Below the pieces are notes generated by a model. That model saw only the letters and a program-made list of their open reading frames with translations. It ran no database searches and was not told where the DNA came from. This document shows, piece after piece, positions 33,087-63,910 of a stretch of DNA of 64,000 nucleotides (positions are counted from its first letter, which is position 1; every line of letters begins with the position of its first letter). This DNA comes from Selenomonas ruminantium AC2024. Lineage in GTDB: Bacteria; Bacillota; Negativicutes; Selenomonadales; Selenomonadaceae. The stretch is from positions 1,302,001-1,366,000 of the forward strand of contig NZ_JIAC01000001.1 of the NCBI RefSeq assembly GCF_000687995.1, in the 5' to 3' direction. The position numbers and the translations under genes are program-made.

Positions 33087-33166
33087 AACGTCAAAAAGAC
33101 GAATGAACTGACTGGATGACCAGAGGTTCTGCGCAAGGGAGATTCCCTGCACAGAACCTCTTTTTT
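33087..33166 (+). ncRNA. Conserved sulfur-gene leader/attenuator, copy A
   Basis: After a small hairpin (CGTC/GACG) comes GAAC-UGA-CUGG-AUGA-CCAG-AG-GUUC (33105-33129), a hairpin with an internal loop. Its last bases, GAGGUUC, are also the 5' arm of the terminator GAGGTTCTG/CAGAACCTC (33123-33160), which is followed by TTTTTT. The two hairpins cannot coexist. Copies C, E, F and G share this plan. Confidence 0.8.
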
Positions 33167-33190
33167 ATTTTTGGAAAGGGTGTAGCGATT

Positions 33191-33253
33191 ATGAAGTGTA
33201 TCTGTTGCAATATTGGTAAGATTCTGTTTAGATACGAACGAATGTGGATTTAA
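33191..33253 (+). CDS. 20-residue Cys-rich leader peptide
   Basis: ATG 33191 follows GGAAAGGGTG. The peptide begins MKCICC (three cysteines in its first six residues) and stops at 33251-33253, two bases before the GGGAGGG site of the next gene. Cys-rich upstream peptides can act as cysteine-supply sensors through ribosome stalling (known for other bacteria). Here the stop position suggests control or coupling of translation of the methyltransferase. It is too short for homology to help. Confidence 0.5.
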   Translation: MKCICCNIGKILFRYERMWI

Positions 33254-33267
33254 CGGGAGGGATTTTC

Positions 33268-34176
33268 ATGATTGCCGCGCAGGAAAGTATGACCGCCAAG
33301 CTTTGCTCCTTTGCCAGGGCTTATCATTCGATGCTCGGAAAGAACAAGATTTTTGATGATTATCTGGCCTATGACATTATCGGCAAAGATGTGTATGACG
33401 AGATTGGCAGCCTGCTCAAAGGGCAGGTGGAGGCGGCAGGCCAGCTGCCCCGCTACGGTTTTGAGAGCTTGCTCGTGTTCGAGGAGATGGACCATTATTT
33501 CTCGCCCATTGCCTTGTCACGGATTGCCTTTGCCGAGCGGGCTTTGGACCGGTTCGCACGCAATCGCGCCAGCTGTCAGTATGTGATTTGCGGGGCGGGG
33601 ATGGATACCTTTGCTTTTCGCAACACGGATGAAGCGGTGCAGGTTTTTGAGCTGGACCACCCGGATACGCAGGCGTACAAACTGCGGCGGATTCATGAAC
33701 TGCGTTGGGAAGTTCCGCCCAATGCGCATTATGCGGCTATCGACTTTGAGCAGGATGACTTGGGACGGACGCTTTTGCATAGCGGCTTTCATACGTCGGA
33801 ACCGTCGTTTTTCTCCCTGCTCGGAGTTTCCTACTATCTGACCGCGGAAGCCTTCCGCGAGTTCGTGCGCAGCGTCAGCATTCTGGCCTCGCCGGGCAGC
33901 CAGTTTGTTTTGGATTTCCCCGATGAATCGACCTTTGAGCCGGATTCGACCTCAAGGGTACGGCGGTTGGCGCAGATTACCGAACAGCTCGGTGAGCCTA
34001 TGCGGCATGGTTTCTCGCTTGCGGAAATGCGGGAGATTCTGGCCAGTGAAGGTTTTGTTATCCGCAATCACGAATCACCGGCGGATATTCAGCGGCATTT
34101 CTTCGCTGACCGTACCGACCATCAGCAGGCGATGGAGAATGTACACTTTATCCTGGCGGAAAAAAGACGACAATAA
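33268..34176 (+). CDS. SAM-dependent methyltransferase, PPM/LCMT-like family
   Basis: 302 residues from ATG 33268 (GGGAGGG, 6-nt spacing). The motif VICGAGMDTFAFR near residue 105 and VFELDHPDTQAYK after it are the hallmark of the leucine-carboxyl-methyltransferase-like (TIGR00027) family. SFFSLLGVSYYLT is a further signature. First gene of the sulfur-regulated operon that continues with MccB and MccA. In B. subtilis a different methyltransferase (YrrT) precedes mccA-mccB, so the arrangement is analogous. Possible substrates are thiol or carboxyl compounds; nothing in the sequence decides this. Confidence 0.83.
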   Translation: MIAAQESMTAKLCSFARAYHSMLGKNKIFDDYLAYDIIGKDVYDEIGSLLKGQVEAAGQLPRYGFESLLVFEEMDHYFSPIALSRIAFAERALDRFARNRASCQYVICGAGMDTFAFRNTDEAVQVFELDHPDTQAYKLRRIHELRWEVPPNAHYAAIDFEQDDLGRTLLHSGFHTSEPSFFSLLGVSYYLTAEAFREFVRSVSILASPGSQFVLDFPDESTFEPDSTSRVRRLAQITEQLGEPMRHGFSLAEMREILASEGFVIRNHESPADIQRHFFADRTDHQQAMENVHFILAEKRRQ

Positions 34177-34196
34177 CTTGATAAAGGATGATCAAT

Positions 34197-35357
34197 ATGT
34201 GTAAGCAGAAATTTAACACCGCCCTGATTCACGGCGGGATTGATGGGGACAGCCGGACAGGCGCGGTCAATGTGCCCATTTATCAGACTTCGACATTTAA
34301 GCAGGACGGTTTGGGGGAACTGCGGGAGGGGATTTGGGAGTATTCCCGTACAGGCAATCCGACAAGGGCGGCACTGGAAGCCCTGATTGCCCAGCTGGAA
34401 GGCGGCGAAGCCGGCTTTGCCTTTGCATCGGGGATGGCGGCGATTACGGCGGTGTTGAGCCTGTTCCAAAGCAATGTAAAAATTCTCCTGTCGAGCAATG
34501 TGTATGGCGGTACCTTCCGCGTGCTGGACAAGGTGTTTAGCCGGTTCAATTTGACGTATTCGTTGGAAGATACGACGGATTTGGCGGCGCTCGAAAGGGA
34601 GTTTACGCCGAATGTCAAGGCCATCATCATTGAAAGTCCGGCTAATCCCTTGCTGACCATCACCGATATCCGGGCGGTGGCGGAAATCGCTCACCGTCAT
34701 GGGGCGCTTGTGATTGTGGACAACACGTTTATGACGCCTTATCTGCAGCAGCCGTTGGCTTTGGGCGCAGATGTTGTCGTCCATAGCGCCACGAAATATC
34801 TGGGCGGGCACAGCGATTTGGTCGCAGGGCTGGCGGTGGTCAAGACACGGGAGCTGGCCGACAAGCTCGCCTTTGTACAGAATTCCACGGGCGCGGTCTT
34901 AGGGCCGCAGGATGCATTCCTGCTGATTCGGGGCATCAAGACGTTGGCGGTACGCCTTGACCGTCATGTGGAAAATGCCGCCTATCTGGCCGATTGGCTG
35001 GCGGGCAATCTGGAGGTGAAGAAGATTTACTATCCGGGGCTGACCAGCCATATCGGTTATGAAATCAATCAGCAGCAGGCGAAAAACGGCGGCGCGATGA
35101 TTTCCTTTGAACTGGCAGAAGGTCATGATATCCGCAAATTCTTCAAGTCGCTGCAGCTTATTGCACTAGCCGAGAGCCTGGGCGGTGTGGAAAGTCTCGT
35201 CTGCCATCCGGCAACCATGACGCATGCCGCCATTCCGCGGGAAACGCGGGAGAAAATCGGCATTACGGATAACCTTATCCGCCTGTCGGTTGGCATTGAG
35301 GATAAGGCCGATTTGCTGGCGGATTTGAAACAGGCCATTGAGGAAAGCCGTATTTAA
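34197..35357 (+). CDS. mccB: Cystathionine gamma-lyase/homocysteine gamma-lyase type (MccB-like)
   Basis: 386 residues. PLP enzyme of the Cys/Met metabolism family. The PLP-binding lysine is in HSATKYLGGHSD near residue 200. YSRTGNPTRAALE and SGMAAITAVL are family marks. Start ATG 34197 is chosen because AAAGG is 9 nt away; ATG 34188 touches it. Next to an O-acetylserine-type cystathionine synthase homologue, the likely role is cleavage of cystathionine to cysteine (reverse transsulfuration). Cystathionine gamma-synthase (MetB) is the main alternative, since sequence alone does not separate these well. Confidence 0.85.
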   Translation: MCKQKFNTALIHGGIDGDSRTGAVNVPIYQTSTFKQDGLGELREGIWEYSRTGNPTRAALEALIAQLEGGEAGFAFASGMAAITAVLSLFQSNVKILLSSNVYGGTFRVLDKVFSRFNLTYSLEDTTDLAALEREFTPNVKAIIIESPANPLLTITDIRAVAEIAHRHGALVIVDNTFMTPYLQQPLALGADVVVHSATKYLGGHSDLVAGLAVVKTRELADKLAFVQNSTGAVLGPQDAFLLIRGIKTLAVRLDRHVENAAYLADWLAGNLEVKKIYYPGLTSHIGYEINQQQAKNGGAMISFELAEGHDIRKFFKSLQLIALAESLGGVESLVCHPATMTHAAIPRETREKIGITDNLIRLSVGIEDKADLLADLKQAIEESRI

Positions 35358-35373
35358 CAGGGGGAGCGCAAGC

Positions 35374-36297
35374 ATGCACTATTATAAGTCTATGCAGGAG
35401 CTCATCGGGCATACGCCGCTCGTTGAGCTGACACATTTTGAGTTGCCGGAGGGCGTCCGGCTGTTTGCCAAATTAGAATTATGGAATCCCGGCGGCAGTG
35501 CCAAAGACCGTGTAGGCAGGGCGATGATTGCCGATGCTGAGGCCCAGGGGCTGTTAATGCCCGGCGGAACCATTATCGAGGCTACGGCAGGCAACACAGG
35601 CCTGGGCATTGCCTATGCCGCGCTGAATCGTGGCTATCGCGTAATCTTCGTGGTGCCGGAGAAGTTTTCCGTGGAAAAACAGACCTTGATGAAGGCTTTG
35701 GGGGCAGAACTGGTGCATACGCCAAGAGCGGGCGGCATGCTTGGGGCGGCGGAAAAGGCGGAGGAACTGCGTCAGCAGATTCCCGGAGCGATTACGCTGA
35801 AGCAGTTTGAAAATCCCGCCAATCCCCGTGCCCATTACGAAACGACCGGGCCGGAAATCTATGCCGATTTGGACGGGCAGGTGGATTACTTCGTTTCCGG
35901 GGCGGGCAGCGGCGGCACGTTTTCGGGCGTTATGCGCTACTTGAAAGAACAGAATCCGGCGATTAAAGGGGTACTTGCGGACCCCTATGGTTCCATTATC
36001 GGCGGCGGGGAGCATGGTGATTATGAAATTGAGGGGATTGGCAATGATTTTATTGCGGCAACGATGGACACATCGTTTATCGATAAGGTCTATAAGATTA
36101 AAGATGAAGAGGCTTTGGCTGGCGTAAGGCAGCTCGCGGGCCGGGAGGGAATCTTCGCGGGCAGCTCGAGCGGGGCAGCCTTGGCGGCGGCGTTGAAGCT
36201 CGCGCATTCCGGCATTCAGGGCAATATCGTCCTGCCGGTTATCGACCGTGCGGAGCGTTACTTCAGCAAACACATTTTGGAAAAGCCTTCCCCTTGA
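35374..36297 (+). CDS. mccA: MccA/CysK-type PLP synthase
   Basis: 307 residues from ATG 35374 (GGGGAG upstream). NPGGSAKDRVG carries the PLP lysine near residue 43, EATAGNTGLGIA the substrate loop, and SGAGSGGTFSG the phosphate loop. This is the cysteine synthase/cystathionine beta-synthase family. Pairing with MccB suggests the MccA reaction: homocysteine plus O-acetylserine to cystathionine. A plain cysteine synthase cannot be excluded. The last four residues (KPSP) and the stop codon come from an interspersed repeat that has entered the 3' end. Confidence 0.85.
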   Translation: MHYYKSMQELIGHTPLVELTHFELPEGVRLFAKLELWNPGGSAKDRVGRAMIADAEAQGLLMPGGTIIEATAGNTGLGIAYAALNRGYRVIFVVPEKFSVEKQTLMKALGAELVHTPRAGGMLGAAEKAEELRQQIPGAITLKQFENPANPRAHYETTGPEIYADLDGQVDYFVSGAGSGGTFSGVMRYLKEQNPAIKGVLADPYGSIIGGGEHGDYEIEGIGNDFIAATMDTSFIDKVYKIKDEEALAGVRQLAGREGIFAGSSSGAALAAALKLAHSGIQGNIVLPVIDRAERYFSKHILEKPSP

Positions 36298-37646: not shown

Positions 37647-38507
<861 letters not shown>

Positions 38508-48747: not shown

Positions 48748-48763
48748 GAACGGGGGGAGCGAT

Positions 48764-50016: not shown

Positions 50017-50045
50017 AATGCTATCGTCATTTAGGAGAGATGTAT

Positions 50046-50366
50046 ATGAAGGATGTACCTGTTGATGTATTGAATTACATTATGTCGGTTTTACGGGGCC
50101 TGTACTTCGGGGAAGTGGTACTGATTGCCCAGAATGGTGTTCTGATTCAGGTGGAGCGTACCGAAAAGATGCGTGTGCATCCCTGGCAGGGCATTCCAAA
50201 ACCTGCGGAATGGTCGGAGGATACCGAGCGGAATTTGCGCCGCACCATTGAGCGAGAGCTTGCCAGCCTTTATTATGGCCGCTTGAGCATCATCGTAAAA
50301 CAGGGTACAGTTACCCATTTTGACCGTTTGGAAAAACAGCGGTTTATGGATGGCGATGGTATTTGA
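50046..50366 (+). CDS. YezD-like (DUF2292) protein with two tandem repeats
   Basis: 106 residues from ATG 50046 (AGGAGAG, about 6 nt upstream; ATG 50040 touches it). Usual DUF2292 proteins are about 50-60 residues. Here two related blocks are seen: NYIMSVLRGLYFGEVVLIAQ with VERTEKMRV, and RTIERELASLYYGRLSIIVK with FDRLEKQRF. Function is unknown, but the family often lies near sulfate-assimilation genes. It has its own operator D and terminator. Confidence 0.75.
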   Translation: MKDVPVDVLNYIMSVLRGLYFGEVVLIAQNGVLIQVERTEKMRVHPWQGIPKPAEWSEDTERNLRRTIERELASLYYGRLSIIVKQGTVTHFDRLEKQRFMDGDGI

Positions 50367-51217: not shown

Positions 51218-52462
51218 ATGAATTTTGTATTTATTTCCCCGCATTTTCCCAAGCATTATTGGAATTTCTGTGACCGCCTGCATAAAAATGGCGTGAATGT
51301 GCTGGGGATTGGTGACTGTCCTTATGATGCGTTGGACAAGCGGCTGAAGGATTCCCTGACGGAATACTATTTCGTGCCGGACTTGTCGGACTATGACCAG
51401 ATGTACCGCGCGGTGGCGTATTTTGCCTTTAAACATGGGAAGATTGACTGGATTGAGTCCAATAACGAGTTTTGGCTGGAACAGGATGCCCGCCTGCGCA
51501 CAGATTTTCATGTGACCACGGGTTATCAATATGAAAATATTGCCAGCATCAAGAACAAGTCCGCCATGAAGGAGTTTTATGCCAAGGCGGGCGTGCCGAC
51601 GGCGCGTCTGCATAAAATCACGGACATTGAAGCGGCGCGGAAGTTTATCGCGGTAGTGGATTACCCGGTAATCGTCAAGCCGGATGTGGGCGTTGGTGCC
51701 TGCGATACCTTTAAGCTCGAAAATGATGCGGATTTGCAGGAATTCTTTGCCAAAAATCTGCCTGTGCCCTATGTGATGGAGGAGTTTGTCACGGGGGATA
51801 TCTGCTCCTATGATGCCATTATCGATTCGGATTCCAAGCCGCTGTTGGAGTCCATGACGGTATGGCCGCCTTCGGTTATGGATATCGTGCTCAAGCAGCT
51901 GGACTTGTCCTATTATACGGCTGCCCATGCTCCGGCGGAGTTAAAGGGCGTAGGCCGGGCTACGGTCAAGGCGTTTGGCGTCAAGAGCCGCTTTGTCCAT
52001 CTGGAATTTTTCCGTCTGACCAAGGCAAAGGCGGGCTTGGGCGATGTTGGGGATTTTGTAGGGCTCGAAGTCAATATGCGACCTGCGGGCGGCTATACGC
52101 CGGATATGATTGACTTTGCCCATTCCACCGATGTGTATCAGGTTTGGGCGGACATGGTGACGGACAACTATCGGAAACTGCCGGACAGCGGTGAGCATTG
52201 TTACTGTGTCTATGCCAGCCGCCGTGACTGCCATCAGTATGTGCATACCCATGGCGAAATCATGGAGCGCTATGGCGCGCAGCTTGTCATGTGTGAACGC
52301 ATGCCGGAAATGATGGTACCGCAGATGGGCAATCAGATGTACACCGCCAAGGTGCCGAGTCAGGACGCCGTAGATGAATTCATCCATTTTGTGCTCGACC
52401 AGGCGGTGGCAGAGGATACGGCTGCTGAGGAGGCGGATGTAAAATTTTGCCTTGCCTATTGA
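51218..52462 (+). CDS. ATP-grasp carboxylate-amine ligase-like protein
   Basis: 414 residues. The ATP-grasp core is visible: NKSAMKEFYAKAGVPTAR, VIVKPDVGVGACDTF (ATP-binding Lys), VMEEFVTGDICSYDAII and GLEVNMRPAGGYTPDM (metal ligands E and N). It should join a carboxylate to an amine or thiol nucleophile. It is coupled to the esterase gene; the pair may make and trim a small conjugate. Substrates unknown. The stop codon (52460-52462) lies inside operator E. Confidence 0.85.
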   Translation: MNFVFISPHFPKHYWNFCDRLHKNGVNVLGIGDCPYDALDKRLKDSLTEYYFVPDLSDYDQMYRAVAYFAFKHGKIDWIESNNEFWLEQDARLRTDFHVTTGYQYENIASIKNKSAMKEFYAKAGVPTARLHKITDIEAARKFIAVVDYPVIVKPDVGVGACDTFKLENDADLQEFFAKNLPVPYVMEEFVTGDICSYDAIIDSDSKPLLESMTVWPPSVMDIVLKQLDLSYYTAAHAPAELKGVGRATVKAFGVKSRFVHLEFFRLTKAKAGLGDVGDFVGLEVNMRPAGGYTPDMIDFAHSTDVYQVWADMVTDNYRKLPDSGEHCYCVYASRRDCHQYVHTHGEIMERYGAQLVMCERMPEMMVPQMGNQMYTAKVPSQDAVDEFIHFVLDQAVAEDTAAEEADVKFCLAY

Positions 52463-52487
52463 CATGATAGGTGTAATAGTGTAACAT
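52455..52487 (+). promoter_or_regulatory. Sulfur-regulon promoter/operator E
   Basis: CCTATTGACATGATAGG (52455-52471), -35 52459-52464, 17-bp spacer, -10 TAACAT 52482-52487. It overlaps the stop codon of the preceding gene. Confidence 0.85.
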
Positions 52488-52493: not shown

Positions 52494-52612
52494 ATCGCAA
52501 ATGAACACAAGTGCTAAATGCTTGTGCGAAGTAAATATGGTTCAGCGAACTGACCAAAAAAATTGGAGGTTCCACAAATTCCTTGCGGGGAATTTTGTGG
52601 AGCCTCTTATTT
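52494..52612 (+). ncRNA. Conserved sulfur-gene leader/attenuator, copy E
   Basis: A longer first hairpin (CACAAG...CTTGTG), then core GAAC-UGA-CCAA-AAAAA-UUGG-AG-GUUC (52547 onward), then terminator GAGGTTCCACAAATTCC/GGAATTTTGTGGAGCCTC (52566-52606) with TTATTTT. It precedes sbp. Confidence 0.8.
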
Positions 52613-52654
52613 TATATAGGAAATTATTTATATTTATGTTGGGGAGGTAATTAT

Positions 52655-53683
52655 ATGAAGTGGTGGAAAACGGCAAGTGTGGCATTAGGAATACTAACGG
52701 CAATCGGTTTTGCTGGCTGCGGCAGTGAACAGGCAGCAAGTAATGCGGACAGCAAGGGGGCAGGGGAATTTTTGAATGTGTCCTATGACCCGACGCGCGA
52801 ATTCTATGCCGAATTTAATCAGGTGTTTACGGGGGAATGGAAGAAGGAAAGCGGTCAGGATGTGGAGTTCCGCCAGTCCAACGGCGGTTCCGGCAAGCAG
52901 GCCCGCTCGGTTATCGAAGGTTTAGAGGCAGATGTGGTGACGCTCGCTCTGGCGTATGACGTGGACGAAATCGCGCAGGCAGGGCTTATCGACAAGGATT
53001 GGCTGAAGAAGTTTCCCGATAACTCCGCACCCTATACTTCGACCATTGTCTTCCTTGTGCGCAAGGGCAATCCCAAGAACATTCACGACTGGGATGATTT
53101 GGTACGGGATGATGTGAAAATCGTCACGCCGAATCCAAAGACTTCCGGCGGTGCCCGCTGGAATTACTTAGCGGCTTGGGAATATGCCCGCCAGAAATTC
53201 AACGGTGACGAAACGCAGGTCAAGGGCTTTATCAAAAAGTTGTTCCAGAATGTGGTGGCGCTTGACTCCGGTGCCCGTGGCGCAACGACCAGCTTTGTAC
53301 AGCGCGGTCAGGGTGATGTGCTGATTGCCTGGGAAAATGAAGCGCTGATTACGCTTAAAGATTCGCCGGATTATGAAATCGTAGCGCCGTCCCTGTCCAT
53401 TCTGGCCGAACCGTCTGTTGCAGTGGTGGATAAGGTCGTGGACAAGAAGGGAACGCGCAAGGTGGCTGAAGCCTACATTAACTATCTCTATTCCGAAAAC
53501 GGGCAGGAAATTGCCGCCAAGAATTTCTATCGTCCGCGCAACAAGGCCGTCTTTGAAAAGTACAAGGGCCAGTTCCCGGAACTTAAGCTCTTTACCATTG
53601 ATGATGCCTTTGGTGGCTGGACGAAAGCGCAGAAGGAACATTTTGCCGATGGCGGCACCTTTGACCAGATTTATCAGAAGTAA
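52655..53683 (+). CDS. sbp: Sulfate/thiosulfate-binding lipoprotein
   Basis: 342 residues from ATG 52655 (GGGGAGG upstream); an in-frame upstream start overlaps the leader terminator and is rejected. The signal peptide ends in a lipobox-like [33 protein letters not shown] and [13 protein letters not shown] are the sulfate-binding protein signatures. Delivers sulfate to CysT/CysW. cysT follows after 18 bp. Confidence 0.95.
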
Positions 53684-53701
53684 GCGTAAGGGGGAAGTGT
53701 T

Positions 53702-54526
53702 ATGCTGAGACTGGGGCAGGTTATTCCGGGCGGCGGGTTCGCCTTGGGGATTGTGTTTTTCTATCTGTCGTTGTTGATTTTTTTGCCGCTGGGCGCGTTC
53801 GTACTTTATGCCAGTGGCATGAGCGGGGAAAGCTTTATCCGGCAGGTGACGGATTACCGCATGGTGCATGGCTATATGCTGAGCTTTGGCTGTGCATTGG
53901 CGGCGGCTGTGATTAATGCCGTGTTCGGGCTGCTGCTGGCCTGGGTGCTGGTGCGCTATAATTTCCCCGGCAAACGGTTGATGGATGGGCTTATCGACCT
54001 GCCCTTTGCCCTGCCGACGGCAGTAGCAGGTATCGCACTGACTACGCTCTATGTGGAAAATGGCTGGCTCGGCCAGTTCTTCTATGCCGCAGGCATTCCG
54101 TCGGCGTTCTCGGCGGTGGGCATAACCATTGCGCTTATCTTTGTGGGGATACCCTTTGTCGTGCGCAGTGTCCAGCCGGTGCTCAGGGATTTGGACGGCT
54201 CGTTGGAGGAAGCGGCAGCCATTATGGGGGCGGGAAAATTCCTGACCTTTCGCAAGGTGATTTTCCCGGAACTTGTGACACCGCTAATCAGCGGTTTTGC
54301 TTTGGCCTTTGCCCGGGGGATTGGCGAGTATGGCAGCGTGGTTTTTATTGCGGGGAATATGCCCTATGAAACGGAGATTGCGCCGCTGCTCATTATGACG
54401 AAACTGGAGCAGTTTGATTATCAGGCGGCTGCGGCGGTGGCGATTGTGATGTTGGGGATGTCATTATTGGTGCTGCTTATCTTGAATGGGTATCAGCATT
54501 ATCGGCTGCAGAGATTAGGAGCATAA
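53702..54526 (+). CDS. cysT: Sulfate ABC transporter permease
   Basis: 274 residues with six predicted membrane helices. DLPFALPTAVAGIALTTLY and the EAA loop LEEAAAIMGAGKFLTFRKVIFPEL are typical CysT. Partner of CysW, which lies 2.1 kb away beyond a repeat-bounded insertion. Confidence 0.94.
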   Translation: MLRLGQVIPGGGFALGIVFFYLSLLIFLPLGAFVLYASGMSGESFIRQVTDYRMVHGYMLSFGCALAAAVINAVFGLLLAWVLVRYNFPGKRLMDGLIDLPFALPTAVAGIALTTLYVENGWLGQFFYAAGIPSAFSAVGITIALIFVGIPFVVRSVQPVLRDLDGSLEEAAAIMGAGKFLTFRKVIFPELVTPLISGFALAFARGIGEYGSVVFIAGNMPYETEIAPLLIMTKLEQFDYQAAAAVAIVMLGMSLLVLLILNGYQHYRLQRLGA

Positions 54527-56410: not shown

Positions 56411-56443
56411 CCTATTGACATAATAGGTGTAATAATGTAACAT
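56411..56443 (+). promoter_or_regulatory. Sulfur-regulon promoter/operator F
   Basis: CCTATTGACATAATAGG (56411-56427), -35 56415-56420, 17-bp spacer, -10 TAACAT 56438-56443. Confidence 0.85.
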
Positions 56444-56449: not shown

Positions 56450-56556
56450 ATCGCCAAAGAGCGGCGACGATAAAAAGTGTAAATCGGGTTGAACTGACCA
56501 AAAAAATTGGAGGTTCTGCAGATTGCCTGTACGGGTGATTTGCGGAGCCTCTTTTT
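56450..56556 (+). ncRNA. Conserved sulfur-gene leader/attenuator, copy F
   Basis: First hairpin CGCC-AAAGAGC-GGCG; core GAAC-UGA-CCAA-AAAAA-UUGG-AG-GUUC (56491-56516); terminator GAGGTTCTGCA/TGCGGAGCCTC (56510-56551) with TTTTT. It precedes cysW. Confidence 0.8.
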
Positions 56557-56580: not shown

Positions 56581-56664
56581 ATGAGCATGTGGAATAAATG
56601 GGAGTTGTTGGCAGAGTCAGGAGGTGTGGCTGATGGAGTTGGTCAGCAAATTAGCAAGTGTTAA
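56581..56664 (+). CDS. Possible 27-residue upstream peptide overlapping cysW
   Basis: ATG 56581 has GGGGGGAGCGCT directly upstream. The frame (starting MSMWNKWELL) ends with a Cys codon and TAA at 56662-56664, overlapping the first codons of cysW. It may couple translation to cysW or be incidental. Confidence 0.35.
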   Translation: MSMWNKWELLAESGGVADGVGQQISKC

Positions 56665-57520
56665 AGCAAAAGAAAAACTTGCAAAGGGAGCCTGGCAGGA
56701 AACGTTAATCAAGTGGTCGTTGATTTTGTTGGGGGCGGCGTTCTTGGTCGTGATGATGGTTCTGCCTTTGGTACTGATTGGTGTGGAGGCTTTGGCCAAA
56801 GGCTGGGCAGCTTATATGCGGGCTATCAGCGAACCCTTTGCCCAGAAGGCTTTATGGCTGACGGCGGAAGCCACAATTCTTGCGGTATTGTCCAATACCG
56901 TGTTTGGGCTGGCGGCGGCGTGGCTGCTCACGAAGTTTGATTTCAAAGGCAAGAGTTTATTAGGCGCCATTATTGATTTGCCCTTTGCGGTATCGCCGGT
57001 GGTGGCGGGCTTGTTCTTTATCATGTTGTTTGGCAGGTTAAGTCCGTTTTATGATACCTTGCAGGCCTATCAGGTGGCGGTGGTGTTTGCGGTGCCGGGG
57101 ATTGTGCTAGCGACTATCTTTGTGACTTTGCCGTTTATCGCCCGCAGCATTGTGCCGGTGATGGAGGCGCAGGGGCGGCAGGAGGAAGAAGCGGCGGCGC
57201 TTATGGGGGCCAGCGGCTGGCGGATTTTTTGGCAGATTACCCTGCCCAATATCAAATGGGGCCTGCTTTACGGCATTATCCTTTGCAGCGCCCGCGCGAT
57301 GGGCGAGTTTGGGGCCGTTTCGGTGGTGTCTGGTCATATCCGGGGCAAGACCAATACCCTGCCGCTGCATATTGAGATTCTCTACAATGAATATAATTTT
57401 ACGGCGGCGTTTGCTGTGGCCTCGATTCTAGTGATTCTGGCCGTGGTGGTGCTTATCTTACGCAATTTGGTGGAATGGCGGCTGACGAGAGCGGAAAGGA
57501 CTGGTGAACATGAGTTATGA
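56633..57520 (+). CDS. cysW: Sulfate ABC transporter permease
   Basis: 295 residues from ATG 56633, with AGGAGG 8 nt upstream. Six predicted membrane helices. DLPFAVSPVVAGLFFIMLFG and EEEAAALMGASGWRIFWQITLPNI (EAA loop) are typical CysW. The next gene, cysA, overlaps by 11 bp. Confidence 0.94.
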   Translation: MELVSKLASVKAKEKLAKGAWQETLIKWSLILLGAAFLVVMMVLPLVLIGVEALAKGWAAYMRAISEPFAQKALWLTAEATILAVLSNTVFGLAAAWLLTKFDFKGKSLLGAIIDLPFAVSPVVAGLFFIMLFGRLSPFYDTLQAYQVAVVFAVPGIVLATIFVTLPFIARSIVPVMEAQGRQEEEAAALMGASGWRIFWQITLPNIKWGLLYGIILCSARAMGEFGAVSVVSGHIRGKTNTLPLHIEILYNEYNFTAAFAVASILVILAVVVLILRNLVEWRLTRAERTGEHEL

Positions 57521-58583
57521 AGTAGAACTGAAACATATCGAAAAATATTTTGGCAGTTTCAAAGCGGCAGATGATGCAAGCTTTGGTGTGGAAAAAGGAC
57601 AGCTGGCCGGGCTCCTGGGGCCTTCCGGCAGTGGCAAGACCACGCTCCTGCGGATGCTGGCGGGGTTAGAACAGCCGGATAAGGGCGATATTTGGATTGC
57701 CGGGCGGCGGGTCAATAAGATTCCGGCGCGGGAGCGGGGCATTGGCTTTGTGTTTCAGAATTATGCGCTGTTCCGCCATATGACGGTGCGGGATAATCTC
57801 GCCTTTGGCCTGCGAGTGCAGAAGGTGGATGGTCACACCATCAAGGTGCGAACGGATGAACTCTTGGAGCTTACGGGGCTTACAGCAGTCGCCAAGCGTT
57901 ATCCGCAGCAGCTTTCCGGCGGTCAGCGGCAACGGGTGGCCTTTGCTCGGGCGCTGGCACCCAATCCCAAGGTCTTGCTGCTCGATGAGCCCTTTGCGGC
58001 CATTGATGCCAAGGTGCGCAAGGAACTCAGAAGCTGGCTGCGGGAGGCGATTCATAGCCTGGGCATTACGAGTTTGTTTGTGACCCATGACCAGGACGAG
58101 GCTGTGGAGGTGGCGGATAAAATCATCATCGTCAACAAGGGACGCATTGAGCAGGCGGGCAGTCCTGTGGAAATCTATCAGTCACCGCAATCGCCGTTTG
58201 TGGCGGATTTTATCGGCGAATCCGTGAAGGTGGAGGACTATACGCGCTTTAAGGGCTTTGGGGGCGAGCAGAGTCAGGCTGGAAATCATCAGGGTATTAT
58301 TCGTCCGGAGTTTATCGAACTGGCCAAGGATGAGCGGGAGATTTCCCTGCCGCTAGGCGCCGAGCAGGGGGTGGTGAAGGCCACCTACTTCCGAGGCAGC
58401 AATATGGCGGTGGACATTGAGGTTCGCGGACAGATTTTGCGGGCGGCGCGTAGTCTCGAAAAGGAACCCTTGCAGGTTGGGGATAAGGCGCTGGCCTTTA
58501 TTCATCGGATTTACAGTTTGGAGGCTGGGCAGACGCGGATTATCGAAAACCGCGCCAAGCGGCAGGAGTCCGTAGTGATTTGA
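57510..58583 (+). CDS. cysA: Sulfate ABC transporter ATPase
   Basis: 357 residues from ATG 57510. Walker A GPSGSGKTT near residue 37, signature LSGGQRQR, Walker B LLLDEPFAAID, switch His in LFVTHDQDE, and a C-terminal TOBE-like domain with IIRPEFIEL. Energises CysTW. Followed after 16 bp by aprA. Confidence 0.95.
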   Translation: MSYEVELKHIEKYFGSFKAADDASFGVEKGQLAGLLGPSGSGKTTLLRMLAGLEQPDKGDIWIAGRRVNKIPARERGIGFVFQNYALFRHMTVRDNLAFGLRVQKVDGHTIKVRTDELLELTGLTAVAKRYPQQLSGGQRQRVAFARALAPNPKVLLLDEPFAAIDAKVRKELRSWLREAIHSLGITSLFVTHDQDEAVEVADKIIIVNKGRIEQAGSPVEIYQSPQSPFVADFIGESVKVEDYTRFKGFGGEQSQAGNHQGIIRPEFIELAKDEREISLPLGAEQGVVKATYFRGSNMAVDIEVRGQILRAARSLEKEPLQVGDKALAFIHRIYSLEAGQTRIIENRAKRQESVVI

Positions 58584-58599
58584 TAAGGCAGATGAGGAT

Positions 58600-60276
58600 A
58601 TGAATGTACGAGAAGAACAGGCGGATATTTTGCTTATCGGCGGCGGGGCGGCGGGCTGCTATGCGGCGCTTACGCTGGGCGAAAAACACCCGGAATTAAA
58701 TGTCCTGCTGGTGGATAAGGCAAATATCAAGCGCAGTGGGTGCCTTGCGGCAGGAGTCAATGCACTGAACGCCTATATCACGCCGGGGCATACGCCGCAG
58801 GATTATGTGGATTATGCCAAGGAAGATGCGGCAGGCATTGTGCGGGAGGACTTGCTCCTGACCATGAGTGAAGGGCTCAATGAAGTAACCGAGAAACTCG
58901 AAAAACTGGGGCTGGTGCTCCAGAAAAATCCCGATGGCTCTTATGCCGCGCGGGGCTGGCGCAATATCAAGATAAATGGGGAAAATATCAAGCCGCTGCT
59001 TGCCAAGGCCGTACTTGACTTGTCAAATGTCAAAGTCAGAAATCATGTCAATATCGTGGATTATCTTGTAATTGGTGGTCAGGTGTGCGGGGCCTGGGGG
59101 ATTGACTTAAAGCAGGAAGAAATCGTACTCTTTACCGCCAAGGCGGTAATCTGTGCTACGGGCGGGGCGGCAGGGCTTTACCAGCCCAATCATCCCGGAA
59201 CTTCCCGCCATAAGATGTGGTACAGTCCCTTTAACACCGGCGCAGGCTATGCCATGGGCCTGCGGGCAGGGGCGGAAATGACCACGTTCGAGATGCGTTT
59301 TATCGCCCTCCGGTGCAAGGGGACAATCGCGCCAACCGGTACGATTGCGCAGGGCGTGGGCGCGCCGCAGATCAACTCCCGTGGGGAAAAGTATCAGGGA
59401 AAATATGGCAATACCACGGCCCAGCGCCTTTGGGCGGTGGTCAAGGAAAATCTGTCCGGCAATGGCCCTTGCTATCTGGCTACGCATGGTATCAGCGCGG
59501 AGCAGGCGGCGGCTTTGGAGCGTGCCTATCTCAATATGGCGCCCGCGCAAACGCTCTTTTGGCGGGAAAGCGGCCTAAGCCCGCAGGAGTTCGATGTGGA
59601 AATCGAAGGTTCCGAGCCTTATGTGGTCGGTGGTCATACCGCCAGCGGCTATTGGATTGGCGCTGACCGGTCAACGACCCTGCCGGGGCTCTTTGCGGCG
59701 GGGGATGTGGCAGGCGGCTGTCCGCAAAAGTATGTGACGGGGGCTTTTGTCGAAGGGGAGATAGCCGCCGAATCTGCGGCAAAATACGCGGTCAAGGCTG
59801 CAACAAAAATGGATTTGACTGGCATAAAAGATACGATTATCAGGCAGGTACAGCATTTTAGCGGCACAACTGCAGACAGTCCCTATACGACCGAAAGTCT
59901 CGAAGAAGCCATGCAGCAGGCTATGGATGAATATGCCGGCGGCATTAAGACGCATTATGGTTATAGCGAAAGTTCCTTAAAGATTGCCGCCAAGCATATC
60001 GAGCGGCTGCAAAGTCTTAGCGACAGCCTGCGGGCGTCAGATGCCTATGGGCTATTAAAAATTTTTGAACTGCGGGAACGGCTGCTCGTCTGTCAGGCTC
60101 TTTTGGCGCATCTAGCGGCACGCAAGGAAACCCGTTGGCCGGGCTTTGCCGAGCATTTGGATTATCCGGAGACGCGCGACGAGTTCAAGGTATTTATCAA
60201 TTCGCGATTAGAAGATGGGCAGATTCAGATTATCCGCCGTCCGTTAGCAGTGAATGCAGAGGAGGCGGCCGGATGA
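58600..60276 (+). CDS. aprA: Adenylylsulfate reductase alpha subunit
   Basis: 558 residues; FAD flavoprotein that reduces APS to sulfite and AMP. FAD motif LLIGGGAAGCYAALTLGEK near residue 12. Others are CLAAGVNALNAYI, RGWRNIKINGE, CATGGAAGLYQPN and AAGDVAGGCPQKYVTGAFVEG. Position between sulfate transport and CysDN points to assimilation. Its electron partner aprB overlaps its stop by 4 bp and carries a stop codon. Confidence 0.93.
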   Translation: MNVREEQADILLIGGGAAGCYAALTLGEKHPELNVLLVDKANIKRSGCLAAGVNALNAYITPGHTPQDYVDYAKEDAAGIVREDLLLTMSEGLNEVTEKLEKLGLVLQKNPDGSYAARGWRNIKINGENIKPLLAKAVLDLSNVKVRNHVNIVDYLVIGGQVCGAWGIDLKQEEIVLFTAKAVICATGGAAGLYQPNHPGTSRHKMWYSPFNTGAGYAMGLRAGAEMTTFEMRFIALRCKGTIAPTGTIAQGVGAPQINSRGEKYQGKYGNTTAQRLWAVVKENLSGNGPCYLATHGISAEQAAALERAYLNMAPAQTLFWRESGLSPQEFDVEIEGSEPYVVGGHTASGYWIGADRSTTLPGLFAAGDVAGGCPQKYVTGAFVEGEIAAESAAKYAVKAATKMDLTGIKDTIIRQVQHFSGTTADSPYTTESLEEAMQQAMDEYAGGIKTHYGYSESSLKIAAKHIERLQSLSDSLRASDAYGLLKIFELRERLLVCQALLAHLAARKETRWPGFAEHLDYPETRDEFKVFINSRLEDGQIQIIRRPLAVNAEEAAG

Positions 60277-60584
60277 GTATTGCCATTGAAAAAGACAAAT
60301 GCGTAGGCTGTGGCCAGTGCACCGAGGTATGTCCGGGAAATCTTCTGTAGCTGCGTGAGGGAAAAGCCGCTATCCGTGAGGTGCGGGACTGCTGGGGCTG
60401 CACCGCCTGCGTCAAGGAATGTCCGCGCAAGGCCATTTACTATTATCTGGCGGCAGATTTGGGCGGCCACGGCGGGCGGCTCTATGCAGAGAACAATGAA
60501 CAAGAAATCAAATGGCAGATGCAGTGGCCGGACGGCAGCCAGGAGGAAATCGTCACGGCGAAGCAGGAAGCCAATCAATATTAA
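60273..60584 (+). pseudogene. aprB: Adenylylsulfate reductase beta subunit with in-frame amber codon
   Basis: Full frame is 103 codons plus stop and matches AprB: first cluster CVGCGQCTEVCPGNLL, then TAG at 60348-60350 (codon 26), then LREGKAAIREVRDCWGCTACVKECP (second cluster) to the normal AprB end. The codon position normally holds Lys; a single base change from AAG would give TAG. No frameshift accompanies it. Without read-through only a 25-residue stub or a restart at GTG 60381 lacking the first cluster would be made, so AprAB electron transfer would fail. Sequencing error or a suppressor tRNA are alternatives. Confidence 0.85.
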
Positions 60585-60601
60585 ATAAACGGGGGAGCGT
60601 T

Positions 60602-61423
60602 ATGTCACAAGCAATCGAAACAGCAGATAAATTAGACAAGCTGGAAGCAGAAAGCATTTATATTTTACGGGAAGCCTACAAGAAATTGGGCAAGCTGGGG
60701 ATGTTATGGTCCATCGGCAAGGATTCGACGGTCCTTCTCTGGCTGGCGAAAAAGGCCTTTTATGGTCATTGCCCCTTTCCGTTTATCCATGTCGATACCA
60801 AGCATAAGATTCCGGAAATGATTGCCTATCGTGACCGGGTGGCCAAGGAACTGAACTTGGATTTGATTGTCCATACCAATCAGGCGGCTATCGATGCCGG
60901 TATGGGACCGGACAAAGGGCGGCTGGCCTGCTGTCAGGCACTAAAGACCGAGGGGCTCAAGCAGGTGGTCAAGGAATACGGCTTTGATGGGCTGATTGTG
61001 GGCGTGCGCCGCGATGAGGAAGGTTCCCGCTCCAAGGAACGCGTGTTCAGTGAGCGCAAGGAGGACGATGCCTGGGACTATGCCAACCAGCTGCCGGAGC
61101 TTTGGGACCAGTTCAAGACGGATTTTCCGAAAGGCCATCATATCCGCGTCCATCCATTGCTGGCCTGGAATGAATTGGATATTTGGGAGTACATCCGCCG
61201 GGAAAATATTCCCATCATTGATTTGTATTTTGCCAAGAACGGCAAGCGCTACCGCTCGTTAGGCTGCGCCTGCTGCACGGGGCAGATTGAGTCGGAGGCG
61301 GACACGCTGGATAAAATCATCGAGGAATTAAAACATACGACCACCAGCGAGCGGGCCGGGCGCAAGCAGGACCAGGAGGATTCCTATGCGATGCAGAAAC
61401 TGCGGAAAGAGGGGTATATGTAA
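60602..61423 (+). CDS. cysD: Sulfate adenylyltransferase subunit 2
   Basis: 273 residues from ATG 60602 (GGGGGAG upstream). Activates sulfate with ATP to APS together with CysN. PP-loop WSIGKDSTVLLWLA near residue 38, FIHVDTKHKIPEM, and GVRRDEEGSRSKERVFS are CysD signatures. LGCACCTGQIES is the C-terminal mark. The stop overlaps the cysN start by one base. Confidence 0.95.
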   Translation: MSQAIETADKLDKLEAESIYILREAYKKLGKLGMLWSIGKDSTVLLWLAKKAFYGHCPFPFIHVDTKHKIPEMIAYRDRVAKELNLDLIVHTNQAAIDAGMGPDKGRLACCQALKTEGLKQVVKEYGFDGLIVGVRRDEEGSRSKERVFSERKEDDAWDYANQLPELWDQFKTDFPKGHHIRVHPLLAWNELDIWEYIRRENIPIIDLYFAKNGKRYRSLGCACCTGQIESEADTLDKIIEELKHTTTSERAGRKQDQEDSYAMQKLRKEGYM

Positions 61424-62847
61424 TGGGGAAAGCATTAGAACAAAAAGAAGCAGGGCTGAATATCGTCGTGGTGGGTCATGTGGACCACGGTAAATCCACA
61501 GTCATTGGCCGCCTGCTCTACGATACAGGTTCTCTGCCGCAGGGAGCCATTGACAAGGTCGAAAAAATCGCACACGATACGGGCAAGCCCTTTGAATACG
61601 CCTATCTGTTGGATGCCTTTGAGGAAGAACAGCAGCAGGGCATTACGATTGACACCACGCGCATTCAGTTCTCTACCGCTAAGCGTGACTATGTGATTAT
61701 TGATGCACCGGGCCATAAGGAATTTTTGAAGAACATGATTTCCGGCGCGGCAGGTGCCGAAGCGGCGCTCCTGATTGTCGATGGTAAACAGGGCGTGCAG
61801 GAACAGAGCCGCCGCCATGCCTATATGCTGAGTCTGTTGGGCATCAAAAAGGTTTATGTGCTGGTCAATAAGATGGATTTGGCAGGCTATGCGGAAATCG
61901 CTTTCGTTAAAATCAAACATGATATGGGGGCGTTCCTGGCGGAACTAGGGATTTATCCGCTCAAGTATATTCCCGTATCCGGCCTGCAAGGAGATAATAT
62001 CGCCAGCAAGTCGGTGCATATGCCGTGGTATCAGGGCGAGCCATTGTTGGAGGCTTTAGATTTGTTGGAAGGTGAACAGGCGGCGGTTGACCGCGCTCTG
62101 CGCCTGCCGATTCAGGATGTGTATAAATTCGATTCCCGCCGCATAATCGCCGGACGGATTGAAGCAGGGCAGTTGGCTGTGGGCGATGAAATCGCCATCT
62201 ATCCCGGCGGCCGCAAGACCAAGGTAGTGGCCTTTCCCTATTGGCAGGCAAAAGACCAGCGCACACAGGCTTTTGCCGGTGCGTCCACAGGCATACAGGT
62301 GGCCGATGAATTCTTCAATCAGCGGGGCGAAATCATCACGCGGGCGGGCGATACGCCGCCGCTTACGGGCAAACGCCTGCGTGTGTCCCTGTTTTGGCTC
62401 GGCAAAAAGCCTTTGCAGCTCAATCGTCGTTATAAGCTAAAACTCGGCACGCAGGAAGTGGAAGCGCAGGTGGAAAGCATTGAAAAACTTATTGACGCGT
62501 CAAGCCTTGACCAGCGCGCGGCGGATACCGTCAAGGAAATCCGCCTCAATGATGTGGCAGAGGTGATTTTGAAACTCAAAGAAGAAATCGCTTTTGACCG
62601 CTTTCAGGACTATCAGGCAACAGGCCGCTTTGTGCTGGTGGATGGCTATGATGTAGCAGGCGGCGGCATTGTGCTGGCGGCGGAAAAAGAAGCGCCTGGC
62701 GAATTCTCCCAGAAGGCAATGCGCTATATCATGAACCATTTGCCGCAGAATGGCGAACTTATCGTCGTGGTCAAAGATGGCGAAATCGTGCGCCTTGAAC
62801 GCACTGAACGGGAAGTTTTCAGCGGCATAGACGGCGAAGGGATTTAA
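61423..62847 (+). CDS. cysN: Sulfate adenylyltransferase subunit 1 (GTPase)
   Basis: 474 residues. GTPase of the EF-Tu type that powers CysD. G1 GHVDHGKST near residue 19, G3 DAPGHKEF near 91, and G4 NKMDLAGY near 146. Ends after the EF-Tu-like beta domains with a short tail, so there is no fused CysC (APS kinase) domain. This agrees with reduction through APS rather than PAPS. Confidence 0.95.
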   Translation: MGKALEQKEAGLNIVVVGHVDHGKSTVIGRLLYDTGSLPQGAIDKVEKIAHDTGKPFEYAYLLDAFEEEQQQGITIDTTRIQFSTAKRDYVIIDAPGHKEFLKNMISGAAGAEAALLIVDGKQGVQEQSRRHAYMLSLLGIKKVYVLVNKMDLAGYAEIAFVKIKHDMGAFLAELGIYPLKYIPVSGLQGDNIASKSVHMPWYQGEPLLEALDLLEGEQAAVDRALRLPIQDVYKFDSRRIIAGRIEAGQLAVGDEIAIYPGGRKTKVVAFPYWQAKDQRTQAFAGASTGIQVADEFFNQRGEIITRAGDTPPLTGKRLRVSLFWLGKKPLQLNRRYKLKLGTQEVEAQVESIEKLIDASSLDQRAADTVKEIRLNDVAEVILKLKEEIAFDRFQDYQATGRFVLVDGYDVAGGGIVLAAEKEAPGEFSQKAMRYIMNHLPQNGELIVVVKDGEIVRLERTEREVFSGIDGEGI

Positions 62848-62884
62848 GGGTATACTTAAAGAAAAAAATAGGAGAGCTGATACT

Positions 62885-63748
62885 ATGGCATACGATTACA
62901 AGGAGCTCAAATCCCATGGCTTTATGCAGCAGAAACAGCCCGGCTGTTTTTCTATGCGCCTGAAAAGCGTGGGCGGCAAGTTCACTGCTGCCCAGCTGCA
63001 GACCGTGCAGGAAGTAGCGGAAAAATTTGGCGAAGGCTATGTGCATCTGACTTCCCGTCAGGGCATTGAGATTCCCTTTATCAAGGAGCAGGATATCGAT
63101 GAAGTTAAAAAAGCCTTGGCAGCGGGCGGCCTTGCCACAGGTTTTTGCGGCGCACAGGTGCGTACGATTACGGCCTGTCAGGGCAATGCCGTCTGCCGTT
63201 CGGGCCTTATCGATACCGCAAGGCTAGCAGAGGAATTTGCGGAGCGCTATGCAGGCAAAATGCTGCCGCATAAATTCAAGGTGGGCTTTACGGGCTGCCA
63301 TAACAACTGCCTGAAGACCGAGGAAAACGATATCGGCATCAAAGGCGGCGTAAAGCCCGTGTGGCAGAAGGATAAGTGCAAGCTCTGCGGTGCCTGCGTT
63401 AAAATCTGCCCGCGGGGCGCGCTGACTTTAGACAGGGAAAAGGGCAAAATCCTTTGGGACAGAAAGAAATGCTATTTCTGTGGCAAATGCACCAAGGGCT
63501 GCAAATTCGAGGCATTTGAGAAAAAGTCCGGCTTTGTCGTGTCCTTTGGCGGGCTCTACGGCAACCGCATTGCCATCGGCAAGAAGATTGTGCCGCTGAT
63601 TTACGGTGAGGATAAACTGCGCAAGGCCCTCGATGCCGCGCTGGATTACTTTGAACAGCACGCCAACAAAGGTGAACGCTTCCGCAATATGCTCGACCGG
63701 ATTGGCTGGGAGGAGTTTACGCAGATAATCCGCGAGAGCCAAAAATAA
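62885..63748 (+). CDS. Siroheme sulfite reductase with ferredoxin domain
   Basis: 287 residues; reduces sulfite to sulfide. The siroheme/[4Fe-4S] ligands are in TACQGNAVCRSG near residue 98 and GFTGCHNNC near 137. A two-cluster ferredoxin insert follows (CKLCGACVKICPRGA and CYFCGKCTKGCKFEA). The small size and layout fit the low-molecular-weight, AsrC-like assimilatory type rather than CysI. Last gene of the operon and 38 bp after cysN. Confidence 0.92.
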   Translation: MAYDYKELKSHGFMQQKQPGCFSMRLKSVGGKFTAAQLQTVQEVAEKFGEGYVHLTSRQGIEIPFIKEQDIDEVKKALAAGGLATGFCGAQVRTITACQGNAVCRSGLIDTARLAEEFAERYAGKMLPHKFKVGFTGCHNNCLKTEENDIGIKGGVKPVWQKDKCKLCGACVKICPRGALTLDREKGKILWDRKKCYFCGKCTKGCKFEAFEKKSGFVVSFGGLYGNRIAIGKKIVPLIYGEDKLRKALDAALDYFEQHANKGERFRNMLDRIGWEEFTQIIRESQK

Positions 63749-63759
63749 TTTTTTGAAAA

Positions 63760-63792
63760 ACTATTGACATAATAGGTGTAACACTGTAATAT
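63760..63792 (+). promoter_or_regulatory. Sulfur-regulon promoter/operator G
   Basis: ACTATTGACATAATAGG (63760-63776; first base differs), -35 63764-63769, 17-bp spacer, -10 TAATAT 63787-63792. Confidence 0.85.
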
Positions 63793-63798
63793 ATAGAC

Positions 63799-63910
63799 AT
63801 GCCAAAAACATTTGGCATACAACCTAAAAAGAGAAAAGAACTGACCAAAAAAATTGGAGGTTCCAGAAGCAAGACCCTTGGCATGAAGGGAGCTTTTGGA
63901 ACCTCTTTTT
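63799..63910 (+). ncRNA. Conserved sulfur-gene leader/attenuator, copy G
   Basis: First hairpin TGCCAAA-AACA-TTTGGCA; core GAAC-UGA-CCAA-AAAAA-UUGG-AG-GUUC (63838-63863); terminator GAGGTTCCAGAAGC/GCTTTTGGAACCTC (63857-63905) with TTTTT. It precedes metY. Confidence 0.8.

Follow-up and report, generated by a model that had tools for sequence, protein, structure and literature searches.

Sulfur control in the Bacillota has mostly been described through the S-box, the T-box and CymR. In the hut operon of Bacillus, the gene for the regulator HutP lies ahead of the terminator that HutP relieves. HutP is an antiterminator protein that acts on nascent RNA (PMC8934654, PMC12456014, in the parts available) and binds repeats in the terminator sequence (PMC8934654, likewise). 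BglG, SacY and LicT bind a short antiterminator hairpin, the RAT, that overlaps the 5' arm of a terminator. ANTAR proteins also bind a hairpin overlapping a terminator, according to the available text of PMC8934654. The accessible portion of Naville and Gautheret (2010; PMC2965389) presents an ABC-leader from an alkanesulfonate operon of bacilli, and a shared element from a sulfonate operon.

The window (the whole 64 kb stretch of Selenomonas ruminantium AC2024 DNA analysed here) contains five leaders that resemble these systems. They are very probably transcription attenuators in which an antiterminator competes with a terminator. The DUF2292 protein is the likely RNA-binding factor in an antitermination system for sulfur scavenging similar to HutP and LicT, a reading given a probability of roughly one half on sequence comparison. 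This system differs from that of HutP in that its antiterminator hairpin is defined, one genome contains many leaders, the genes concern sulfur rather than histidine, and DUF2292 is the candidate protein. The HutP-like gene order recurs in 37 Bacilli genomes, where DUF2292, the putative regulator, is followed by the element and the operon. In contrast to the BglG, SacY and LicT targets, the hairpin has one 2x1 internal loop, and there is no general link to the PTS. In contrast to ANTAR targets, the internal loop is conserved and not the terminal loop; under the loop rule applied, a hexaloop with A1 and G4 occurs in 0 of 173 rows, and an ANTAR target was rejected. The ABC-leader of PMC2965389 likewise combines an antiterminator and a terminator ahead of a sulfonate transporter in Bacilli and may be the same motif. 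The available text of that paper names no wider regulon, structure or protein. The S-box (SAM riboswitch, RF00162) similarly controls sulfur genes of Bacillota by way of a terminator, and the element gives no RF00162 match.

The five leaders of the window

The five leaders proposed by the first-pass annotation are all present where it had placed them, on the + strand (Table 1). The core pattern has five matches in the complete 2.83-Mb genome, which are exactly these leaders, and none in the reversed control. A stricter pattern has four matches in the window and none in 100 shuffles. Within the 64 kb, covariance model R3 returns exactly the five leaders at E up to 10; its 111 training rows include none from the window, although they were found with model R2, whose training includes the window.

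Table 1. Features of the five leaders, their downstream genes and the DUF2292 locus, by window position.
Feature	Position	Strand	Remark
Leader 1 promoter	33052..33080	+	TTGACA-17-TAACAT, overlaps palindromic operator-like site; read from sequence
Leader 1 first hairpin	33089..33101	+	CGUC/GACG; not conserved in family
Leader 1 antiterminator hairpin	33105..33129	+	
Leader 1 intrinsic terminator	33122..33166	+	-26.5 kcal/mol; 5' arm common to antiterminator
Genes behind leader 1	33244..36297	+	
Methyltransferase	33244-34176	+	
Cystathionine-lyase/synthase-type PLP enzyme	34188-35357	+	
Cysteine-synthase-type PALP	35338-36297	+	
Leader 2 promoter	47984..48012	+	with palindrome
Leader 2 antiterminator hairpin	48037..48061	+	
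Leader 2 terminator	48055..48097	+	-18.7 kcal/mol
Genes behind leader 2	48127..49969	+	
Protein of unknown family	48127-48747	+	
M20 amidohydrolase/peptidase	48563-49969	+	ORF
Palindrome-promoter and DUF2292 gene	49985..50366	+	no RNA element
DUF2292 protein, two repeats	50040-50366	+	candidate trans-acting factor
Leader 3 promoter	52459..52487	+	with palindrome
Leader 3 antiterminator hairpin	52547..52572	+	
Leader 3 terminator	52566..52613	+	-26.6 kcal/mol
Genes behind leader 3	52655..54526	+	
Sulfate-binding protein	52655-53683	+	
Sulfate permease CysT	53702-54526	+	
Leader 4 promoter	56415..56443	+	with palindrome
Leader 4 antiterminator hairpin	56491..56516	+	
Leader 4 terminator	56509..56556	+	-30.6 kcal/mol
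Genes behind leader 4	56624..63748	+	ABC permease, ABC ATPase, adenylyl-sulfate reductase alpha, CysD, CysN, sulfite-reductase-type protein
Leader 5 promoter	63764..63792	+	TTGACA-17-TAATAT, with palindrome
Leader 5 antiterminator hairpin	63838..63863	+	
Leader 5 terminator	63856..63911	+	-30.6 kcal/mol
O-acetylhomoserine sulfhydrylase-like first residues	63934..64000	+	by eye; gene cut by window end

The promoter ahead of every leader, TTGACA-17-TAACAT in leaders 1-4 and TTGACA-17-TAATAT in leader 5, overlaps the palindrome CCTATT-gacat-AATAGG. This palindrome has seven copies within three mismatches in the window. Two of these lack the RNA, and one of the two stands with its promoter ahead of the DUF2292 gene. 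Because the promoters bear this operator-like site, both initiation and termination would be controlled in this genome.

The proposed link to sulfur is borne out. Most recognisable genes behind the motif concern sulfur, in distant groups as well, and some first genes are not recognisably sulfur genes. Across genomes, the motif operons include nitrogenase-like, sulfonate, sulfate, methionine and corrinoid-methyltransferase operons. The gene census covered 84 proteins of the 91 ORFs picked behind 93 matches (two matches had no ORF; L173, L201, L207, L229, L239, L240 and L244 were omitted).

Structure, covariation and distribution of the element

Each leader contains a 25-26 nt hairpin made up of an outer stem, a near-invariant GA/A internal loop and an inner stem (consensus NNRCU-GA-YNNN-loop-NNNR-A-GGYNN). 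The core described previously, GAAC-UGA-stem-AG-GUUC, is present, but its internal loop is not UGA opposite AG. The outer stem, GAACU/GGUUC, includes a U-G pair, and GA lies opposite A. In relatives, the U-G pair is replaced by C-G in 3 of 62 (A4) and 8 of 110 (A6). The GA is kept in 62 of 62 and 108 of 111 rows and the opposed A in all rows (62/62 and 111/111). The terminal loop varies from 4 to 10 nt, and conservation in the leader is confined to the 2x1 loop and its flanking pairs. A kink-turn was set aside by inspection of this loop.

In all five leaders, the 3' arm of the hairpin doubles as the 5' arm of a strong intrinsic terminator. The shared closing arm, as the first-pass annotation had it, is 7-8 nt long. 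Folding energies are -18.7 to -30.6 kcal/mol for the terminators and -7.1 to -9.4 kcal/mol for the antiterminators. The first terminator control, with six pairs, was too lax (163 of 173 rows and 589 of 820 shuffles), and a threshold series was therefore used in its place. Stems of 10 or more pairs that begin at the AGG arm are present in 159 of 173 rows and 37 of 820 shuffles; because A4 and A6 have at least five elements in common, the 173 rows represent fewer independent elements than that. Terminator overlap and shuffle-tested stems uphold the attenuator logic proposed earlier. The UGA side lies outside the terminator, and its conservation therefore speaks for recognition of the antiterminator.

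A first hairpin is found in all five leaders, as had been claimed, but it is not a member of the conserved element, since relatives have short leaders without it. Many relatives have a promoter-like site about 20 nt ahead of the outer stem, according to a weak scan (53/62 and 87/111 rows, against 25 and 48 in shuffles).

The core covaries. None of 500 shuffles reaches its values for cells paired, double-change cells or covariation score, and slid structures also fall below it; in A4, two of five measures (pairs with double change and pair types) are not above shuffles. The covariance-model search suggested earlier yielded further copies across Negativicutes, with covariation supported beyond the source genome. 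The motif is present in 104 of 380 Negativicutes genomes and, within one Bacilli order, in 70 of 239 genomes (including three, G380, G381 and G384, reached via motif loci). It is also seen in a Pelotomaculum and in MAGs labelled Deltaproteobacteria, with up to 17 leaders detected per genome. The five copies are real, but the element is neither a local oddity nor limited to Negativicutes.

Matches were called under strict filters, at E 0.001 with R2 in Negativicutes and at E 0.01 with R3 in Bacilli, and some genomes counted as motif-negative are therefore misses. For example, in two R2-negative genomes (G251 and G245), an R3 match adjoins a DUF2292 gene (L290 and L268). R2 was trained on 48 of 56 sources, without four duplicates (L008, L010, L011, L029), L072 (CUGG core) and three weak, core-less matches before alaS- and tmk-like genes (L076, L091, L093). 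R3 was trained on 67 of 93 regions and 17 of 60 named loci, all hand-picked, and its 111 rows were left uncleaned by eye.

The element was described earlier as matching no S-box, SAM-II/III or T-box pattern, and no Rfam 15 family matches it at gathering score. In the window and 20 loci, this threshold gives only tRNA, SAM and 6S matches, all elsewhere than the element, and no T-box. The only SAM-clan match is an S-box in locus L063 (117-219), a feature separate from the element there (955-1020). Single elements searched at E up to 10 give only sub-threshold chance matches. The literature searched, including term searches of PMC6429828, PMC8632094 and PMC11109978 but not the 2017 catalogue of 224 candidate RNAs, did not show the motif apart from the possible sighting in PMC2965389.

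DUF2292 as a candidate antiterminator

DUF2292 (PF10055; YezD in Bacillus) is a small alpha-beta-beta protein of one or two repeats. In counts uncorrected for phylogeny, it is present in 101 of 104 motif-bearing and 42 of 276 other Negativicutes genomes, and in 66 of 70 motif-bearing and 42 of 169 other Bacilli genomes. Three and four motif-bearing genomes, respectively, lack it. Outside the Negativicutes, all 17 chosen motif-bearing genomes contain it. The control, CysT, is present in 14 of 40 motif-bearing and 6 of 40 motif-negative genomes, which were hand-chosen (the negatives all from the window's own family, the motif-bearing set excluding G012, G017 and G118, which lack DUF2292). The motif is tracked far better by DUF2292 than by CysT, a member of the regulon.

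In 37 Bacilli genomes, the element lies directly 3' of the DUF2292 domain on the same strand, with a gap of 3-53 nt in 36 and 295 nt in one. For 6 of 93 elements, the first downstream gene is DUF2292 itself; the count is not 7 because at L232 a downstream DUF2292 ORF was substituted for the first ORF. In the available text of PMC6385201, yezD is up in starving B. subtilis and its deletion left survival unreduced. In the literature searched, the name DUF2292 occurs in only two papers, in passing both times.

In the proposed mechanism, the nascent RNA would first form the short antiterminator hairpin. Unaided, the much more stable terminator would capture the 3' arm of this hairpin and transcription would stop by default. 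Under sulfur limitation, the presumed signal, a factor would grip the hairpin via the GA/A loop, block the terminator and allow the sulfur genes to be read. This factor is most likely DUF2292, which would serve many leaders in trans; in Bacilli, its gene often directly precedes one of the hairpins that it would target. Initiation would be a further point of control in the genome of the window, through the palindromic site. The hairpin, its terminator overlap, covariation, gene context, co-occurrence and adjacency are seen in the sequences and support this model.

The same RNA evidence, covariation and terminator overlap, would apply if another protein were the antiterminator and DUF2292 merely a further member of the sulfur regulon. 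This is a less likely but serious alternative. No RNA-binding fold is recognised in DUF2292, and genomes in which no motif was detected contain it too. The motif-bearing genomes that lack it, the unreduced survival of the yezD deletion and the DUF2292-like tail of CysN also count against DUF2292 as the factor. Its predicted structure is confident (mean pLDDT 85) and has no clear match among known folds (best Foldseek E 0.05, best VIA-align Z 3.9), from which no verdict on RNA binding follows; no solved structure of a relative was found. Against another protein stand the tracking of the motif by DUF2292 in two classes and beyond, its adjacency to the motif and its advantage over CysT. The obvious alternative, CAT_RBD (PF03123), sought in motif-bearing genomes only, is present in 19 of 54, and it is absent from 35 and from the window's genome. 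A BglG-type factor was rejected on this basis.

The in-line probing proposed in the first-pass annotation implied a metabolite or tRNA sensor. A protein-bound antiterminator is more likely, because the conserved part is tiny (one 2x1 internal loop) and the DUF2292 link is close. It is improbable that the hairpin is a very small riboswitch that directly binds a sulfur metabolite (e.g., O-acetylserine, cysteine or sulfide). The conserved internal-loop bases, the sulfur regulon and the terminator-based platform would suit one, but the variable terminal loop and the restricted conservation would not, and the DUF2292 link would be left unexplained. To our knowledge, such a riboswitch would be smaller than any known aptamer.

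Control in cis by translation, in which a ribosome ending at DUF2292 or on a leader peptide chooses the hairpin, is very unlikely. The 36 Bacilli cases with short gaps can be read as a stop codon followed by the hairpin, but 64 of 114 Bacilli matches have no DUF2292 nearby and many Negativicutes have promoter-like sites, in the weak scan above, about 20 nt ahead of the hairpin. A leader-peptide attenuator was rejected, as no ORF rich in Cys codons occurs in any of the five window leaders: among closed ORFs of 5 codons or more, one contains a single Cys codon and the rest contain none. That the leaders are plain terminators or copies of a dispersed repeat with no regulatory role, as the identical core of leaders 3-5 in this genome might suggest, is highly unlikely given compensatory changes in both stems across many families, conserved bases outside the terminator and sulfur genes in distant groups.

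As an RNA family, the motif is a marker for a sulfur-scavenging regulon in two classes at least, and so can guide the functional assignment of unknown genes in its operons. DUF2292 gains a testable function. Should it prove to bind the hairpin, it would represent a novel kind of RNA-binding antiterminator, as small as about 50 residues and recognising a compact RNA site. DUF2292/YezD could quite plausibly be an unrecognised antiterminator family that, with the 25-nt hairpin, provides widespread sulfur-starvation control in Bacillota and some groups beyond. CysN carries a DUF2292-like tail (Pfam E only 0.6), which perhaps points to a role of DUF2292 at sulfate activation.

Leaders in the window

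The window contains five leader RNAs, all on the + strand and at the positions given by the first-pass annotation. The core pattern has five matches in the complete 2.83-Mb genome, all inside the window; the reversed pattern has none. The promoter TTGACA-17-TAACAT (variant TAATAT in leader 5) lies upstream of each leader and overlaps a palindrome, which in leader 4 is ACACCTATT-gacat-AATAGGTGT. Two further copies of the palindrome, with three and one mismatches, lie ahead of mnmA and of the gene for DUF2292 (PF10055, a small protein family; YezD in Bacillus), and the attenuator RNA is absent at both. On this sequence evidence, the DNA-level regulon of palindrome and promoter would be broader than the RNA regulon. 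The palindrome may serve as operator for an Rrf2/CymR-type repressor.

Leaders and related features in the window
Feature	Leader start	Hairpin or feature position	Strand	Downstream genes
Leader 1	33087	33105	+	methyltransferase, cystathionine-lyase-type and cysteine-synthase-type enzymes
Leader 2	48019	48037	+	protein of unknown family, M20 peptidase
Leader 3	52494	52547	+	sulfate-binding protein, CysT
Leader 4	56450	56491	+	ABC permease, ABC ATPase, adenylyl-sulfate reductase, CysD, CysN, sulfite-reductase-type protein
Leader 5	63799	63838	+	gene running past window end; by eye resembles O-acetylhomoserine sulfhydrylase
Palindrome copy		46830-46861		mnmA
Palindrome copy		49985-50016		DUF2292 gene
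CysN		61423-62847

The first-pass annotation described the core as a hairpin with a UGA/AG internal loop. The hairpin stands but the loop does not; the fold is GAACU-GA-[4 bp]-loop-[4 bp]-A-GGUUC. In the five leaders, this hairpin has a folding energy of -7.1 to -9.4 kcal/mol and the terminator one of -18.7 to -30.6 kcal/mol. The two share an arm, as had been proposed, with the final 7-8 nt of the hairpin forming the start of the terminator.

The hairpins are mutually exclusive, conserved and covarying, they occur in a sulfur gene context, and DUF2292 is closely linked to them. The leaders are very probably an attenuator of sulfur genes (probability roughly 0.93). Judging from folding energies, termination would be the default state. 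A factor that holds the antiterminator would switch the genes on; this factor may be DUF2292, and the signal would be sulfur limitation.

Spread and conservation of the RNA family

A first search model (R1), built from five sequences, matches 67 of 380 Negativicutes genomes at E 0.01. These matches were inspected by eye and weak ones without the core were dropped. The second model (R2), built from 62 matches, finds the motif at E 0.001 in 104 of these 380 genomes, spread over 40 of the 102 genera. In 16 chosen motif-bearing genomes there are 4 to 17 motifs each. The third model (R3), built from 111 rows with the window sequence excluded, recovers the five leaders and nothing else in the window. 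In the Bacilli order that includes Niallia circulans, it matches 70 of 239 genomes at E 0.01.

An exact-pattern scan of named sequences finds 60 stretches. These come from Pelosinus, Sporomusa, Propionispora, Anaerospora, other Negativicutes or unplaced MAGs, from ten Bacilli (including Niallia circulans, Priestia abyssalis, Bacillus methanolicus, Brevibacillus thermoruber and Fictibacillus), and from a single Pelotomaculum and six MAGs with a Deltaproteobacteria label.

The core stems covary among these relatives, as they appeared to within the window. Double-change cells are far above shuffles in both alignments (104 vs 31 in A4, 62 rows; 105 vs 23 in A6, 110 distinct rows), although these and the other covariation figures are not probabilities because the shuffles preserve columns and not relatedness. 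Paired cells reach 96.3% in A4 (83.2% shuffled) and 95.5% in A6 (85.8% shuffled). In A4, double changes occur in 7 of 9 pairs, and neither this number nor the count of pair types is above shuffles; in A6 there are 8 of 9 such pairs (5.7 shuffled) and 21 further pair types (16.8 shuffled). When control structures are slid by 1-3 columns, 20-60% of cells pair. The unpaired 5'-side GA is fixed in 62/62 rows of A4 and, for each base, in 108/111 of A6. The opposed A, followed by GG, is fixed in 62/62 and 111/111 rows. In 159 of 173 rows, the AGG arm begins a terminator stem with 10 or more pairs; the shuffles give 37 of 820.

Rfam has no match to the RNA family, in agreement with the initial view that it fits no S-box, SAM-II/III or T-box pattern. 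Naville and Gautheret (PMC2965389) depict an ABC-leader for an alkanesulfonate operon of bacilli; this leader may be a family member. In locus L063, an S-box (117-219) and the element (955-1020) are separated by ~740 nt, and two sulfur RNAs therefore coexist in one genome.

Genes behind the motif in other genomes

The first genes behind 93 motifs in nine genomes were collected, and 84 proteins were scanned for families. Among the commonest are Cys/Met PLP enzymes (8), URO-D proteins (7) and ABC permeases (7). Also in this commonest group are DUF2292 (7, one by the author's replacement of an ORF), PALP cysteine synthases (6), nitrogenase-type component 1 (5), NMT1-type binding proteins (5 and 4) and MetN-type NIL domains (2). 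Part of the remaining genes have no recognisable sulfur role. By eye, sulfate-binding proteins are present in six of the ten Bacilli loci; at the remaining loci there are transporters of sulfonate type, a set resembling MetNIQ and a carrier resembling TcyP.

Nitrogenase-like genes lie downstream of motifs at five loci (L110, L114, L116, L193 and L225); they may be methylthio-alkane reductases. A RuBisCO-like protein with a PTS behind a motif may belong to methionine salvage. At L211:771-1277, a motif (E 1.3e-5) is upstream of a non-sulfur gene that by eye looks NusG/LoaP-type.

DUF2292 as a candidate trans-acting factor

A many-copy hairpin with a single 2x1 loop suggests a bound protein. A CAT_RBD protein, the evident alternative to DUF2292, is disfavoured as this factor, being present in 19 of 54 motif-bearing genomes and absent from the window's genome. 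DUF2292 is recognised as a recurrent motif neighbour in the first-gene listing, and there is an even chance that it is the RNA-binding factor of the leaders. Antitermination through a bound factor is of a known kind; DUF2292 in that role would be new.

In the Negativicutes, PF10055 is found in 101 of 104 motif-bearing genomes (all except G012, G017 and G118) and in 42 of 276 others. In the Bacilli order, the counts are 66 of 70 (all except G427, G431, G530 and G537) and 42 of 169. Outside the Negativicutes, all 17 chosen genomes carrying the exact pattern contain PF10055; R2 itself, run on 11 of them, picks up the motif in 10. In a chosen set of 80 genomes, which excludes G012, G017 and G118, DUF2292 is present in 40/40 motif-bearing and 4/40 motif-negative genomes; the regulon control CysT is above cut-off in 14/40 and 6/40.

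In the Bacilli, 37 of 114 R3 matches (37 genomes) begin 3-295 nt downstream of a same-strand DUF2292 domain, with a spacing of 3-53 nt in 36 of the 37. Five further matches are upstream of the domain within 1 kb and eight are opposite one within 1.5 kb. In the loci read, the DUF2292 stop codon is followed by a few bases and the hairpin. The hutP regulator gene lies ahead of its own terminator, and these Bacilli loci have the same layout, with DUF2292 as the putative regulator.

In the literature searched, the name DUF2292 occurs in two papers, in passing in each. In one study, yezD is up during B. subtilis starvation and its deletion leaves survival unreduced (PMC6385201). Structure searches give no solved relative and no clear fold match; the AlphaFold model predicts alpha-beta-beta twice (mean pLDDT 85, pTM 0.76). 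The Bacilli proteins examined have a single repeat. Those of the Negativicutes have two, in one protein or across two adjacent ORFs, and the 35 two-repeat proteins aligned end in G-(D/E)-G-I. The repeats are separate adjacent small ORFs at L263, L264, L267, L279, L288 and L290. In the window, the C-terminal stretch of CysN resembles a DUF2292 repeat by our own HMM (Pfam E just 0.6), with a GDGEGI-like end.
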